NCBI RefSeq assembly: GCF_004006665.1
Contig: NZ_QOCL01000002.1
Coordinates: forward strand, 124,001 to 188,000
DNA length: 64,000 nucleotides
Direction: 5' to 3'
Source of the DNA: Halobacteriovorax sp. HLS
Lineage (GTDB): Bacteria; Bdellovibrionota; Bacteriovoracia; Bacteriovoracales; Bacteriovoracaceae
Shown here: positions 20,033 through 53,057 of the stretch, in pieces
Position numbering within the stretch: the stretch's first letter is position 1
How the letters are laid out: each line of letters starts with the position of its first letter
Program-made: the position numbers and the translations under genes
Notes under the pieces: model-generated
Told to the model about the DNA's origin: nothing
Seen by the model: only the letters and a program-made list of their open reading frames with translations
The model's database searches: none

Positions 20033-20734
20033 TTAATCAATATCACAAACAAGCTTTTTCTGTCCATTTATGATCTTCAATATCTCTTTCTTTATTAGTG
20101 ACGTATTACCTTCAAAAGTAAGTGAGAGCCTAGCAGCTCCATATGGATTCTCTTCGTTTGAAAAAGGATTTAGCTTTATCATGCTAGATACTTTTGCATC
20201 TACTTTAATATTTTTCATCGGAAAAGTTAGCTCTAGACCTTTAATAATATCTCCAAAAGTGAATTTATTAACTTCATTCTTTGAAAGAACTAAAGACATG
20301 CCACCTATACTTATATCATTACAAGATTTATTAAACCTAACCTTGTTATGTTCAAACTTTATCGAAAGGTTAAAGAATGGATCGATTCTTTCAGATTTTC
20401 TTCTATCATAGAATTTATAGTATTTTGGAAAAGCGATAGTGAGATCATCTTCATACGAAAGAAATTCTGATTCAAAAAGAAGAGACATCTGAGGTATTGC
20501 GAAATTTATTTTTCCAATTCCACCGATTAATTCATCGAGATATGCTCTGCTTATTTTTTTTGGACTTAATATGATTTTTTTTTGATTAAATTTAATTGTC
20601 TTAAATTCTAAATCGGCCTTAACAACTCTTCCACCAAATGATCCCCATGCATAAATCTCATACTTACTTTTAAAAGCTTCAAGTATTAGATCTTTAACTT
20701 TTGAATCATTTTCTTCATTTCTCAAGTTGTTCAT
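20033..20734 (-). CDS. PilZ domain protein (c-di-GMP receptor)
   Basis: 233 residues. The C-terminal half is a PilZ domain: RRKSERIDPFFNLSIKFEHN carries the RxxxR c-di-GMP clamp, followed by CNDISIGGMSLVLSK (DxSxxG motif) and a beta-barrel ending in ARLSLTFEG. The N-terminal 110 residues have no named domain and resemble the YcgR-like beta-rich accessory domain. It would bind cyclic di-GMP in the cytosol. It lies between flagellin and lpxH on the same strand with a structured leader, so a link to motility control is plausible. The start is supported by GGAGAAGG four bases ahead. Confidence 0.85.
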   Translation of the reverse strand: MNNLRNEENDSKVKDLILEAFKSKYEIYAWGSFGGRVVKADLEFKTIKFNQKKIILSPKKISRAYLDELIGGIGKINFAIPQMSLLFESEFLSYEDDLTIAFPKYYKFYDRRKSERIDPFFNLSIKFEHNKVRFNKSCNDISIGGMSLVLSKNEVNKFTFGDIIKGLELTFPMKNIKVDAKVSSMIKLNPFSNEENPYGAARLSLTFEGNTSLIKKEILKIINGQKKLVCDID

Positions 20735-39869: not shown

Positions 39870-40946
39870 TTACCTCATTTTCAATGTCGCTATCGCGAAC
39901 ATTGCTAAAAATATACTAATAATCCAAAATCTGACTATTACTTTTGGCTCCGGCCATCCCTTTAATTCAAAGTGATGATGTATAGGGGCCATTCTAAAAA
40001 TTCTTTTCTTTCTAAGTTTATAGGAGCCTACTTGTAAAATTACAGATAGGGCCTCTACAACAAAAATACCACCGATAATCACAAAGAGTATCTCACTCTT
40101 AGTCAGCACCGCTATAATTCCTAGGTTTCCACCTAGGCTTAGAGAACCAACATCTCCCATAAATATTTGTGCTGGATAAGAGTTGTACCATAGAAAGCCT
40201 ACACCGGCACCTATTATGGCCGCAGAAATAACCATCAATTCACCGATATTTTCTACATAAGGAATAAATAGGTATGCAGCAATCTCTTTATGACCAGCAG
40301 CGTAAGCAATAATACCTAAACTTGCCGCACTTGTAACGATTGGACCAATTGCTAAACCATCTAAGCCGTCAGTTAGGTTTACTGCATTACTTGAACCGAC
40401 TACGACTAGTCCTATAAAAAGAACATAGAACCAGCCCATATCTAAAACCGGTCCCTTAACAAAAGGAACGTACAAATTAGTATCTATTACACCATTACTA
40501 ATTAGAAAGTAGCCAGCTAACAAGGCCGTAGCGAATTGCCACAAAAGCTTTCCTTTAGCTGATATTCCATCAGTATTTTTTTTTAAAACTTTAAGATAGT
40601 CATCACAAAAGCCTAATAAGAAGTAAGATAGTGTAACGCCTAGAGTAACGAGGACTGGTATAGAGAAGAAATTGGCCGTAACTAACATTGTTACGAAAAT
40701 AGTACCAATAATGAAAACTCCACCCATTGTAGGTGTTCCAGCCTTCTTTAAGTGACTTTCAGGACCGTCATCTCTCACGATTTGTCCAAACTGCTTCCTT
40801 TTCATAAATTTAATGAAATATTGACCCCAAACGATTGAAAAGATAGTAGCAATCAAGAAAGCCGCAAAAGTACGAAATGTAATATAGCGAAAAATATTAA
40901 AAGCAGAGAAATCCTGACTTAGAGGATATAAAAAATGATATAGCAT
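39870..40946 (-). CDS. mraY: Phospho-N-acetylmuramoyl-pentapeptide transferase
   Basis: 358 residues with ten hydrophobic segments. Transfers phospho-MurNAc-pentapeptide to undecaprenyl phosphate at the inner membrane (lipid I). Family motifs: IVRDDGPESHLKKAGTPTMGG at residues about 55-75, FLLGFCDDYLKVLKKNTDG (DD motif), SSNAVNLTDGLDGLAIGP and IFRMAPIHHHFELKGWPEPKVIVRFW. The HHHFE loop is complete. The gene is preceded by murF with 30 bases between. No surprise in sequence. Confidence 0.97.
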   Translation of the reverse strand: MLYHFLYPLSQDFSAFNIFRYITFRTFAAFLIATIFSIVWGQYFIKFMKRKQFGQIVRDDGPESHLKKAGTPTMGGVFIIGTIFVTMLVTANFFSIPVLVTLGVTLSYFLLGFCDDYLKVLKKNTDGISAKGKLLWQFATALLAGYFLISNGVIDTNLYVPFVKGPVLDMGWFYVLFIGLVVVGSSNAVNLTDGLDGLAIGPIVTSAASLGIIAYAAGHKEIAAYLFIPYVENIGELMVISAAIIGAGVGFLWYNSYPAQIFMGDVGSLSLGGNLGIIAVLTKSEILFVIIGGIFVVEALSVILQVGSYKLRKKRIFRMAPIHHHFELKGWPEPKVIVRFWIISIFLAMFAIATLKMR

Positions 40947-49199: not shown

Positions 49200-49790
49200 T
49201 TATTCAACTCCACCCTTTAAATTCATAAGAACTAATTTACTAATCTGCTTTAATGTTTCAAACACGCCTGTTCCTTGAGTAGCTACGCCTTCAAACTCTG
49301 GAAAGTTCCATTTGTTTAGTTTTGAAGACAGATCTTCTTTACTCATAACATTAGGTAGATCTCTTTTGTTCCATTGCATAACAATAGGAATTTTACTCAT
49401 ATCATAACCTTGCTCTAAGAGGTTACTTTCAAGATTTTTTAAACTCTCAATATTTGCATCAAGCCTTTCAACTTGTGAGTCTGCAACAAAGACAACACCA
49501 TCAACACCCCTAAGGATCAATTTTCTACTCGCCTCATAAAAGACCTGCCCAGGTACAGTATAGAGATGAAACCTCGTTTTAAACCCGCGTATTTCTCCAA
49601 GGTCTAATGGAAGAAAATCAAAAAAGAGGGTTCTTTCATTTTCAGTATTTAAAGAAATTATCTTTCCCTTAGAGTCACCAGAAGTTTTTTGATAAACATG
49701 TTGTATATTTGTAGTCTTGCCACCAAGGCCTGGACCATAGTAAACAATCTTACAGTTAATTTCTTTTGAATGATAATTTACAAAAGACAT
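49200..49790 (-). CDS. mglA: MglA family Ras-like GTPase
   Basis: 196 residues. P loop [20 protein letters not shown] (GPGLGGKT, 19-26), a DLG-type G3 region around residue 57 ([26 protein letters not shown]) and the G4 motif WNKRDLPN near 140. The [29 protein letters not shown] block is diagnostic of MglA. In Myxococcus and Bdellovibrio this GTPase sets cell polarity and gliding. A roadblock-like gene lies 11 bases upstream. Co-transcription with dnaX-ybaB-recR is inferred from spacing. Confidence 0.92.
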
Positions 49791-49801
49791 ATATCCCTCA
49801 G

Positions 49802-50311
49802 TTATTGAAGTGCTGTTGAGAATAGATTATCCATCTCTTCATCAGTAATATTATTAAAAAGTGTGCTATCGATCATATTGTCACTATTTTTCGATGTTAA
49901 TGCCCAAAAATCAGACAATCTCCAACTCATATCCCTAAGCTTTGATTTAATCTGCCCAGGATTAACTTCTTCAAAATAAATCATTCCTAAATAAACTTCT
50001 TCATTACCAAGTGAAATTGGTACTATATAAATTCCTTTATCAGATGTATCGAAACTTAATCTAAATATGTCTCTCTCTGTAGAGTTGGGAATAAATGACG
50101 CCATCGCTCTAGCTGCTTGCCATACTCCACCAAGTAACGCACCAACTGAAGAGCTATCGAAATCAGTACTTAGTTCATTTTTGACATACAATGGAACACC
50201 ATCTGATCTGCAAAGAAACAAACTACTATTTTTTAATTGGTTTACATCAGCAACTTCTGTAAAGAATTCCTCTGCTAATTTTGGTAAATTTTCCAAAGTA
50301 AACAAAACCAC
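49802..50311 (-). CDS. Roadblock/LC7-like protein, possible MglB-type regulator
   Basis: 169 residues. The middle part fits a roadblock fold: [20 protein letters not shown] (strand, helix), [20 protein letters not shown] and [30 protein letters not shown]. The C-terminal 45 residues ([20 protein letters not shown]) are an extra acidic tail. MglB roadblock proteins are GAPs for MglA; sharing an operon with mglA makes a functional partner likely, but the sequence is far from classical MglB. Its start is 11 bases after recR. Confidence 0.65.
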
Positions 50312-50322
50312 TCCCTGGTTAG

Positions 50323-50916
50323 TTACATTTTTCTTCTATTTTCTAACGCTTTCGCTATTGTCATGGTATCCAAATATTCTAAACTTCCACCCATTGGAAT
50401 ACCAAATCCAATTCGATCGACCTCAACCGTTTCTGGAATAACTTGATTAATATAAGAACAAGTCGCATCACCCTCAACAGATGGGTTAACAGCTAGCACT
50501 ATGCTCTCAATATTCAAATCACGCACTCTCTTCACGAAATTATCTATTTTTAATTCTTCAGGTCCTATACCCATCAATGGATTAAGAACCCCTCCTAAAA
50601 TATGATAAAGACCGTGGTAATTACCACTTCTCTCAATCGCTAAACAGTCTGTTACATTTTCTACAACACAAATGGACTTACTTTCTTTTCTTTCAGGCTT
50701 GGAACAAATGTCACAGATATTTTCATCTGCATACATACCACACTCATTACACGACTTAAGATGTGCCAAGTTTTTCATAGCATCACCAAAAGCTAATAAT
50801 TCTTGAGCTGACCATTTGGCCAAAACAAGTGTCTGCCTAGTTGCTGTTTTATCACCAACGCCAGGAATTCGACTTAATTGATCAATAACATCTAAGAGTG
50901 TTTTTGGTAGTTCCAC
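50323..50916 (-). CDS. recR: Recombination mediator RecR
   Basis: 197 residues. N-terminal helix-hairpin LSRIPGVGDKTATRQTLVLAKW, Cys4 zinc module CNECGMYADENICDIC, then the TOPRIM domain (ICVVENVTDCLAIERSGNYHGLYHILGGVLNPLMGIGPEEL) with VLAVNPSVEGDATCSYI, and the closing GIPMGGSLEYLDTMTIAKALENR. RecR works with RecF/RecO loading RecA at gaps. It follows ybaB by 8 bases in the conserved dnaX-ybaB-recR order. Confidence 0.96.
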   Translation of the reverse strand: MELPKTLLDVIDQLSRIPGVGDKTATRQTLVLAKWSAQELLAFGDAMKNLAHLKSCNECGMYADENICDICSKPERKESKSICVVENVTDCLAIERSGNYHGLYHILGGVLNPLMGIGPEELKIDNFVKRVRDLNIESIVLAVNPSVEGDATCSYINQVIPETVEVDRIGFGIPMGGSLEYLDTMTIAKALENRRKM

Positions 50917-50924
50917 TTATTTCC

Positions 50925-51239
50925 TTAAAAAAGACCTGGAATATTTAATCCACCAGTAACTTTACTCATTGCTGAACTAACCATCTCTTGCGATTCCTTA
51001 ACGGCTTGATTAACAGCAGTTTGAATAAGCTCTTCCAACGTTTCAACGTCAGTCGGATCAACACATTCCTTATCTAGCTTAAACTCTTGGATCTCTTGCT
51101 TTCCATTGATCTTAATTTTAACCATTCCACCACCTGAAGAAACATCAAGCTCTCTAGATTCAAGTTCTTTTTGTAACGTAGACATTTTCTGTTGCATTAC
51201 TTGTGCTTGTTTCATTAAGTGATTTAAATTCTTTGCCAT
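50925..51239 (-). CDS. ybaB: Nucleoid-associated protein YbaB/EbfC family
   Basis: 104 residues with the family architecture: long N-terminal helix LMKQAQVMQQKMSTLQKELE, the beta strands VSSGGGMVKIKINGKQEIQEFKLD and the C-terminal helix VNQAVKESQEMVSSAMSKVTGGLNIPGLF. Binds DNA as a tweezer-shaped dimer; role in nucleoid shape or repair. Order dnaX-ybaB-recR is widely conserved. A ribosome binding site GGAGCTT precedes the ATG. Confidence 0.94.
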   Translation of the reverse strand: MAKNLNHLMKQAQVMQQKMSTLQKELESRELDVSSGGGMVKIKINGKQEIQEFKLDKECVDPTDVETLEELIQTAVNQAVKESQEMVSSAMSKVTGGLNIPGLF

Positions 51240-51248
51240 TTCAAGCTC

Positions 51249-53057
51249 CTATTTAGATTCTTTTTTTATAATAACTTTATCAATTTTAGAGTTAAAGATA
51301 TCTTGCGCCTGTACTATAAGAGGGTTATTCAAGATATCATTCTTCTGTCTATCTTCTTCTTTATCCTCTAACATCTGCTTAATCTCTGCTTTAGACTTAA
51401 AGTCAGTCTCAATTGCATCCTCATTACCAACAAGCTCCAAAACAATAGTAACATTCTTTTCTTCAACATTAAAAAAATCACAAACCTGTGATGTAAGCTT
51501 TTTGAAAGCTTCTGCTTCTTTTAAATAATCAAGAAAAACCTTACTTGTTTCAGGAAAACCAATATCAATAACAACTGTGCTTTCTGTGACAGTCAGTGGA
51601 TTAATAATATTACCTTGCTCAAGGTTAGAAGCAGCAGCTGGCGACACTTTAAATAAGTAAGCTAAAAAACCGTCCCATGATCGAGGCAGATCCTGAACAG
51701 ACTTTTCTCTTAATAATTCTTCTGATTTAGTAACTGAATCAAGAGTCTCATCGACCTGAACAGGAATACTTTCATTTGAATCGAGAACCTTAGACAGCTC
51801 TTCAAAGTTAACCGCAGGCCCTTCATCCTGCCTATCTTCTTCAACTATCACCTCAGCAGGTTTAACTTCTATAGTCTCAGAAGGAGGACTCTCTATTACG
51901 TCCTCAATAACTTCTACTTTTTCTTCATTTGCACTGGAGTTAATTATCGTTTTTTTTTTTACGATTTCTTCTTCTTGAAAAAAAGAATTTCGAAGCGCTA
52001 TTTTTACAAGAGCAACTTCAGTGGCCCTTTCTGGAGAAAGAGACGCCAACGTCCAAATAATATCTTTAGAAATGGACTCGTAAATCCAAAAGATTTCACC
52101 TGGCTGCAAAGAACTACTATTTGCAGCAGGCCATCTCGATTTTATATTTTCTTCATTATCTACCTGAGAAATAAAGAGATAGAATTCATCAAGCAGAGAA
52201 TAACAAATATTTTTTGCTGAAACATTTTCATTTAACAAATCATTATAAAGCTTACTTAAACTTACTCTGTCACCATTAATGATAAAAGTTACCATATCTA
52301 TAATAGCAGAGGTTTTAGCAAGACCTAAAGCGTACGATACGCTTTGCTCAGTTATAACTCCATCCTCAGAAAAACTAAGAACTTGATCTAATAGAGATAA
52401 AGAGTCTCTAACCGAACCTTTACCTTGAGCACTTATTTGAGAAATAATTTTATCATCTTCAAACTTTATGCCTTCTTCTGTTGCAATATGTTTTAGATGG
52501 ACCGAAAGATCTTTAACAGTTGCATTGCGAAAATCGAATCTCTGACATCTTGAAAGGACAGTTCCTAATAACTTCTCAGGCTCAGTTGTTGCCAGTATAA
52601 AAATAGCGTGAGCAGGTGGCTCCTCAAGAGTTTTTAAAAGTGCATTAAATGCGCTCGTTGAGAGCATATGAACTTCATCAATTATATAAATTTTGTATTT
52701 TCCAGACGTGGGAAGATATTGAATATTTCCAATCAGGTCTCTAATGTCGTCTACACTATTGTTAGAAGCACCATCAATTTCTACAATATTCATAGAAGTT
52801 GTGCTTTCAAAGTCCAAACAACTTGGACATTCTCCACAGGGATTAGAGTCTTCACGCTTATTTTCACACCTAATTGCTTTAGCAAAAATTCGTGCTACAG
52901 ATGTTTTCCCAATTCCTCTAGTTCCAGACAAAATATAGGCATGCCCGAGCTTATCTCTTGATAAAGCATTTTGAAGAGAGCGTGTTATATGAGACTGACC
53001 TATAACATCTTGAAATCTCTTTGGGCGCCACTTTCTAGCTAGAACCTGATACGACAT
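51249..53057 (-). CDS. dnaX: DNA polymerase III gamma/tau subunit
   Basis: 602 residues as read in frame. Walker A GTRGIGKT (45-52), a Cys4 zinc site (Cys64, 74, 77, 80), Walker B IYIIDEVHML, sensor 1 IFILATTEPEKL and sensor 2 GSVRDSLSLLDQ, then domain III to about residue 365. Residues 367-369 are three Lys encoded by an 11-A run. Beyond it lie a low-complexity linker (EVIEDVIESPPSETIEVKPA) and a tau-type C-terminal domain (about 445-540). A slip of one base either way on the A run would truncate the product at about 370 residues, giving a gamma form. It is preceded by the SRP RNA gene. Confidence 0.95.
   Translation of the reverse strand: MSYQVLARKWRPKRFQDVIGQSHITRSLQNALSRDKLGHAYILSGTRGIGKTSVARIFAKAIRCENKREDSNPCGECPSCLDFESTTSMNIVEIDGASNNSVDDIRDLIGNIQYLPTSGKYKIYIIDEVHMLSTSAFNALLKTLEEPPAHAIFILATTEPEKLLGTVLSRCQRFDFRNATVKDLSVHLKHIATEEGIKFEDDKIISQISAQGKGSVRDSLSLLDQVLSFSEDGVITEQSVSYALGLAKTSAIIDMVTFIINGDRVSLSKLYNDLLNENVSAKNICYSLLDEFYLFISQVDNEENIKSRWPAANSSSLQPGEIFWIYESISKDIIWTLASLSPERATEVALVKIALRNSFFQEEEIVKKKTIINSSANEEKVEVIEDVIESPPSETIEVKPAEVIVEEDRQDEGPAVNFEELSKVLDSNESIPVQVDETLDSVTKSEELLREKSVQDLPRSWDGFLAYLFKVSPAAASNLEQGNIINPLTVTESTVVIDIGFPETSKVFLDYLKEAEAFKKLTSQVCDFFNVEEKNVTIVLELVGNEDAIETDFKSKAEIKQMLEDKEEDRQKNDILNNPLIVQAQDIFNSKIDKVIIKKESK
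51950..51960 (-). other. A11 slippery run in dnaX (probable programmed slippage site)
   Basis: On the coding strand, 11 consecutive A follow GT in codon 366. With one extra A (or a -1 ribosomal shift) the frame reads Lys-Lys-Lys-Asn-Asp-Asn-stop. With one A fewer (or +1) it reads Lys-Lys-Lys-Arg-stop. Both give a 370-372 residue protein ending after domain III. This resembles the transcriptional slippage of Thermus dnaX (a run of nine A) more than the A AAA AAG ribosomal shift of E. coli; I did not find a clear downstream stimulatory hairpin. Confidence 0.75.

Follow-up and report, generated by a model that had tools for sequence, protein, structure and literature searches.

A conserved poly-A run at the gamma/tau border of dnaX points to programmed slippage in Halobacteriovorax sp. 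HLS

In dnaX of Thermus thermophilus, transcriptional slippage takes place on a run of nine As, and both the heterogeneity of the RNA and the formation of products at about 1:1 have been shown (PMC1088944, PMC5009743). The placement of stops in both shifted frames is likewise already known, as it was published for the same gene (PMC5009743; PMC1088944). A second group comprises 17 two-ORF dnaX frameshift genes with a poly-A run, mostly of 10 As, from 12 genera, in which tau depends on the shift; in E. coli reporter cassettes, shifting amounted to 10%, 40% and 63% for runs of 7, 9 and 11 As (PMC3711429). The main text of that study mentions neither Bdellovibrio nor Bacteriovorax, a literature search on Bacteriovorax and slippage returned nothing, and no report of dnaX slippage was found for the host phylum in the literature searched. 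Slippage in dnaX is already known from Thermus and from the two-ORF genes. Here, we analyse an A11 run in dnaX of Halobacteriovorax sp. HLS, located in a window of 64,000 nucleotides (the whole stretch of DNA that was analysed).

The dnaX gene and its A11 run

The dnaX gene (window positions 51249–53057, minus strand) encodes a product of 602 aa, the full-length, tau-like form of DNA polymerase III subunit tau/gamma. It is named DnaX above cut-off by TIGR02397 and PRK05563 and also exceeds the cut-off of NCBIfam NF004046; its Pfam domains include DNA_pol3_delta2 and DNAX_ATPase_lid. PF13177 covers residues 21–178, PF22608 residues 185–231 and PF12169 (gamma/tau domain III) residues 235–368, the last with 21.1 vs 24.4 bits, i.e. 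below the threshold for that single model. The AAA+ core, the lid and domain III thus assigned correspond to codons 1–368 (51954–53057, minus strand). The remaining, tau-specific part (51252–51938, minus strand) consists of an acidic, variable linker and a C-terminal region; alignment shows the linker to be poorly conserved and conservation to set in from about residue 454. It is through its C-terminus that E. coli tau makes contact with the alpha subunit of the polymerase (PMC3290774).

The candidate slippage run of 11 As lies at 51950–51960 on the minus strand, within codons 366–370 (GTA AAA AAA AAA ACG); codons 364–373 of the coding strand read GAA ATC GTA AAA AAA AAA ACG ATA ATT AAC. Situated at about 61% of the gene length, it separates the clamp-loader domains I–III from the C-terminal part of tau. 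Both shifted frames close immediately, with stops one and three codons past the last lysine codon. With one A added, or upon a −1 ribosomal shift, translation would meet the TAA at 51940–51942 (minus strand), and the A12 reading gives a gamma-like protein of 372 aa ending in VKKKNDN. With one A lost or two added, the TAA at 51944–51946 (minus strand) is met instead, resulting in gamma-like proteins of 370–371 aa; here the A10 reading (370 aa) ends in VKKKR and the A13 reading in VKKKKR. Re-reading of the sequence reproduced exactly what an earlier note had given for the run, in position and length, and for its two neighbouring readings, Asn-Asp-Asn-stop with one extra A and Arg-stop with one fewer. 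The same note had placed the truncation after the AAA+ core and domain III, in agreement with a PF12169 match that ends at residue 368, directly at the run. The gamma form of E. coli dnaX also ends just after domain III.

Directly downstream of dnaX and likewise on the minus strand follow a ybaB-like gene of 104 aa (50925–51239), recR (50323–50916), an mglB-like gene (49802–50311) and mglA (49200–49790). The same order, dnaX-ybaB-recR-mglB-like-mglA, has been reported for Bacteriovorax marinus (PMC3983030). If messages of different run length are made, those for gamma would contain a stretch of about 690 bases ahead of ybaB-recR that is not translated, and expression of ybaB-recR could be reduced as a result. 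As a local feature, the run is enclosed by an inverted repeat, ATCGT ... ACGAT (51943–51966, minus strand), which is not shared by neighbouring species. A U7/A-rich hairpin precedes the run.

Runs of this length are rare in the genome. Pattern searches located A11 at only three places in the whole 3.84 Mb and no A14 at all. Among the 62 predicted genes of the window, only three coding-strand runs of at least nine As were found. An A9 run is present at codon 121 of an MraY-like gene (39870–40946, minus strand) and another at codon 51 of a gene encoding 233 aa (20033–20734, minus strand). Within the window, coding DNA shows only a weak tendency to avoid A runs. Still, a lone A11 in AT-rich DNA proves little: the window has a GC content of 34%, the dnaX linker is rich in lysine and glutamate, and synonymous shuffling of the window's genes leads one to expect 0.3 A11 runs. 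Judged by the window, the run is therefore compatible with a functionless by-product of a lysine-rich linker that arose by chance, and it is the comparison with relatives that speaks against this explanation.

Conservation of the run and of the stops in both shifted frames

A set of 129 genomes of the host family was searched, and dnaX was readable through the region in 111 of them. These 111 genes (181 kb of coding sequence) hold 55 runs of at least nine As, 50 of which fall in codons 350–395, in 31 genera. At this site, the runs occupy codon phases 0, 1 and 2 in 14, 20 and 17 genes; their lengths are A9 (19 cases), A10 (27), A11 (3) and A12 (2), and A7–A8 are nearly absent. A position conserved over 31 genera and in three phases is far beyond chance, the more so as only ten runs of at least ten As occur in the 3.44 Mb of G001, the nearest complete relative. 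Consequently, the chance explanation is already contradicted by the sequence comparison, and we consider it wholly improbable.

The host genus illustrates what is retained. All five of its species carry A9–A11 at the corresponding codon, both shifted frames soon run into a stop in each of them, and the alignment shows nine invariant A columns inside poorly conserved flanks. The peptide encoded at the run varies among relatives (VKKKT, EKKN, QKKT, EKKK) while the nucleotide run stays; judged by these sequences, it is the nucleotide run and not the peptide that is kept. This bears on the idea that selection acts on a KKK peptide, e.g. in a DNA-contacting or protease-sensitive linker, with the A run as a secondary effect. 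Such a peptide is indeed present in most relatives, and gamma of proteolytic origin is known from Caulobacter (PMC5009743). Beyond the variation of the peptide, a constraint at the protein level gives no reason for stops to accumulate in the two shifted frames, and we regard this alternative as extremely unlikely.

That enrichment is pronounced. Past the run, the median distance to the first stop is 2.5 codons when one A is added and 3 codons in the remaining frame, compared to 5 and 8 codons for positions of these linkers away from the run (MWU p 2e-4 and 9e-10). As the null positions taken from a single gene depend on one another, the values obtained with one entry per genus, 2e-7 and 6e-9, are the safer ones. 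The double-sided stop design emphasized in the earlier note is thus present in the window and enriched in both frames across genera.

The run is not universal. On a tree of 159 DnaX proteins its presence changes state 20 times; it is mostly missing in clades g37 and g14 (nearly all members of each), g4, g36 and g45 and in part of g12, and in most members of g37, g14, g4, g36 and g45 even a run of at least eight As at the gamma/tau border is missing. In these clades of the family, gamma would be either dispensable or made otherwise, and the clades that lost the run constitute a natural experiment by which the need for gamma can be tested in comparisons of relatives. The comparison with relatives suggested in the earlier note, covering run length and out-of-frame stops, accordingly turned out in favour of the run in all five species of the genus and in 31 genera of the family, with the exception of the clades just named. 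Outside the family, sampled members of families f2, f11, f14, f17, f21 and f23 of the same phylum show A9–A10 at dnaX codons 385–405; no such run was found at these codons in the sampled members of f6, f8, f12 and f3. In G022 (L021), DnaX comprises only 444 aa: most of the tau-specific region is lost, and the A run is also missing. According to a 2012 review, most bacteria lack dnaX frameshift signatures (PMC3290774), and gamma production by most bacteria has been doubted; here, such a signature is conserved across the host family as well as in further families of its phylum.

Three relatives show the reverse layout, in which the zero frame is short and tau would require a shift. In G069 (L207, A11), the zero frame ends after 365 aa and one A less gives 565 aa. 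In G106 (L171, A9), it ends after 375 aa and one A more gives 635 aa; in G144 (L245), one A more extends 405 aa to 514 aa. These may be real cases of tau depending on a shift, or homopolymer assembly errors. Run lengths in G069 and G106 that are out of frame compared to their sister genomes, together with the variation from A9 to A12 between species, would also suit a contingency locus, at which replication slippage changes the length of the DNA run between cells (phase variation). However, tau is expected to be essential, and cells in the off state should therefore not survive; nearly all genes are set to the tau frame, and stops in both frames at the gamma boundary are not expected for an on/off switch. 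We therefore consider phase variation very unlikely.

Level of the proposed slippage

Given the conserved runs and the double-sided stops, some kind of programmed slippage very probably takes place at the dnaX run, which supports the central proposal of the earlier note that gamma and tau are made from one gene by slippage. We favour a mainly transcriptional, Thermus-type process as the likely form. RNA polymerase would realign the transcript on the A/T tract, giving a mixture of mRNAs with 10, 11, 12, 13 and further numbers of As. Messages with 11+3n As would yield the 602 aa tau. All other lengths would lead to a stop one to four codons past the run, and hence to a gamma-like protein of 370–372 aa that keeps the AAA+ core, the lid and domain III, without the C-terminal tau region. 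The short form would serve as gamma, a role that we infer along with the ratio of the two products. That slippage occurs in the cell and is mainly transcriptional we likewise infer from the run, the near stops, their position and their conservation.

The main competitor is a −1 ribosomal frameshift of the E. coli dnaX type at A_AAA_AAA, which would produce the short form from an unchanged mRNA. Every dnaX run of at least nine As includes an in-frame A_AAA_AAA, the stop in the −1 frame is close (in the window, the TAA at 51940–51942), and the only lysine tRNAs found, two genes, both carry the anticodon UUU; these features also suit ribosomal slippage. Yet the window reads A_AAA_AAA followed by ACG and contains no A_AAA_AAG. 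A Shine-Dalgarno-like (SD-like) site upstream of the run was found in none of 50 family dnaX genes (2.3 expected), and the same 50 genes show no excess of downstream structure (mean z −0.26 vs −0.12 for the control; −1.22 in the window). Run lengths cluster at 9–12 where 6–7 would do, and the opposite frame has its stops just as near, although a −1 ribosomal shift needs one frame only. Finally, G069 would require a shift in the opposite direction. Transcriptional slippage, which yields every length, fits the service to both frames, the lengths of 9–12 and the lack of an SD-like site and a stem-loop, as well as the opposite directions in which tau would be restored (loss in G069, gain in G106 and G144). 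A purely ribosomal origin is thus unlikely, while both levels may contribute to the shift.

Possible stimulators of slippage were also considered. A nascent-RNA hairpin abutting the run shows no clear excess among 51 genes (mean z −0.23). An upstream T7 run as partner of the A run was rejected: runs of at least six Ts are about as common without the A run (25% vs 20%), and the T7 is explained by a conserved Phe-Phe.

Runs at other domain boundaries and comparison with known systems

A9–A12 runs at domain boundaries were also found in genes for a GYF-like membrane protein, a pyruvate kinase-ferredoxin and RibBA, these companion sites having been detected partly by following A runs. In all four genes, dnaX included, a slip by one base would close or reopen the reading frame at the boundary, and the in-frame length differs between species in three of them. 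Four of the ten long runs in G001 are located at such sites, one in dnaX, two in the GYF-like gene and one in the pyruvate kinase gene. Similarly, 262 kb of coding sequence from the host genus yielded only five runs of at least nine As, and three of them are boundary sites (dnaX once, RibBA twice).

The second A11 of the host genome (G000:C1:566169–566179) is located at the end of a 326 aa membrane ORF (L032:1493–2473, minus strand), which one added A fuses to the next ORF of 398 aa (L032:255–1451, minus strand). The resemblance of the former to GYF is our own reading; no Pfam or NCBIfam match was obtained. For the 398 aa ORF, an all-alpha superhelical fold is predicted (pLDDT 89.5), and the model has no solved-structure match at E ≤ 0.001. 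Of 29 family loci, 25 have the junction with A9–A12, and each of these needs one A more; in other relatives (L322, L325 and L326) the fusion is encoded in frame with the runs kept at the same sites. At several loci, a further run with stops on both sides of the frame precedes the membrane helix. Two slippage sites and up to three products are predicted for this gene. That all 25 junctions need a single direction would be equally met by a −1 ribosomal shift; the bias fits transcription too, since insertions exceed deletions in transcriptional slippage on A7–A11 (PMC6260861).

A pyruvate kinase with a C-terminal 2[4Fe-4S] ferredoxin carries A10 at codon 493 (L328:1310–2986, minus strand); in G001, the run falls exactly between the kinase and the ferredoxin domain. 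In 70 family pyruvate kinases, all 19 runs of at least nine As are situated at codons 477–494, and 17 of them at 491–494, so that 17 of the 70 relatives have a domain-border run (A9–A11). The frame ends at 497 in G002 and G017, which puts the ferredoxin out of frame; adding one A extends the product to 560 aa. In RibBA, three of the four congeners that were read (L344, minus strand; L431; L437) carry A10 where RibB and RibA meet, in two codon phases and with off-frame stops in both frames within 3–8 codons; slippage is predicted to give RibB alone vs RibBA. An A10 was also noted at codon 147–148 of 360 in an M23-peptidase-like protein (L346, G000:C3:237908), where the membrane/coiled-coil part at the N-terminus gives way to the peptidase-like domain at the C-terminus.

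Taken together, we lean towards the view that the family and its relatives use poly-A slippage as a general means of gaining or dropping entire domains. The companion genes suggest that slippage of RNA polymerase is a routine source of isoforms in this lineage. Gene callers would report a gene of this kind either as one protein or as a pair of broken ORFs.

Compared to known systems, the locus most closely follows Thermus dnaX in its coding-strand run of at least nine As, its single tau ORF with near stops in both other frames and, as predicted here, gamma from mRNAs of shifted length. It differs in its phylum, the longer A11 run and the position at about 61% of the gene, directly after domain III. 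The two-ORF dnaX genes likewise have poly-A between the gamma and tau parts, a layout shared by G069, G106 and G144; in the window, on the contrary, the zero frame is open over the 602 aa of tau, and a shift would make gamma. With E. coli dnaX, the locus has in common the gene, the predicted outcome, the near −1 frame stop and tRNA-Lys(UUU) as the only lysine tRNA found, whereas A_AAA_AAG, the SD-like stimulator and the stem-loop are missing and 11 As with stops in both frames are found instead. Two length variants per gene, as predicted here, are also known from transcriptional slippage on poly-A/T runs in IS elements and tssM (PMC1088944, PMC4256274). Slippage there usually restores or extends a frame, a layout that the GYF-like gene resembles, whereas in dnaX it would truncate the product.
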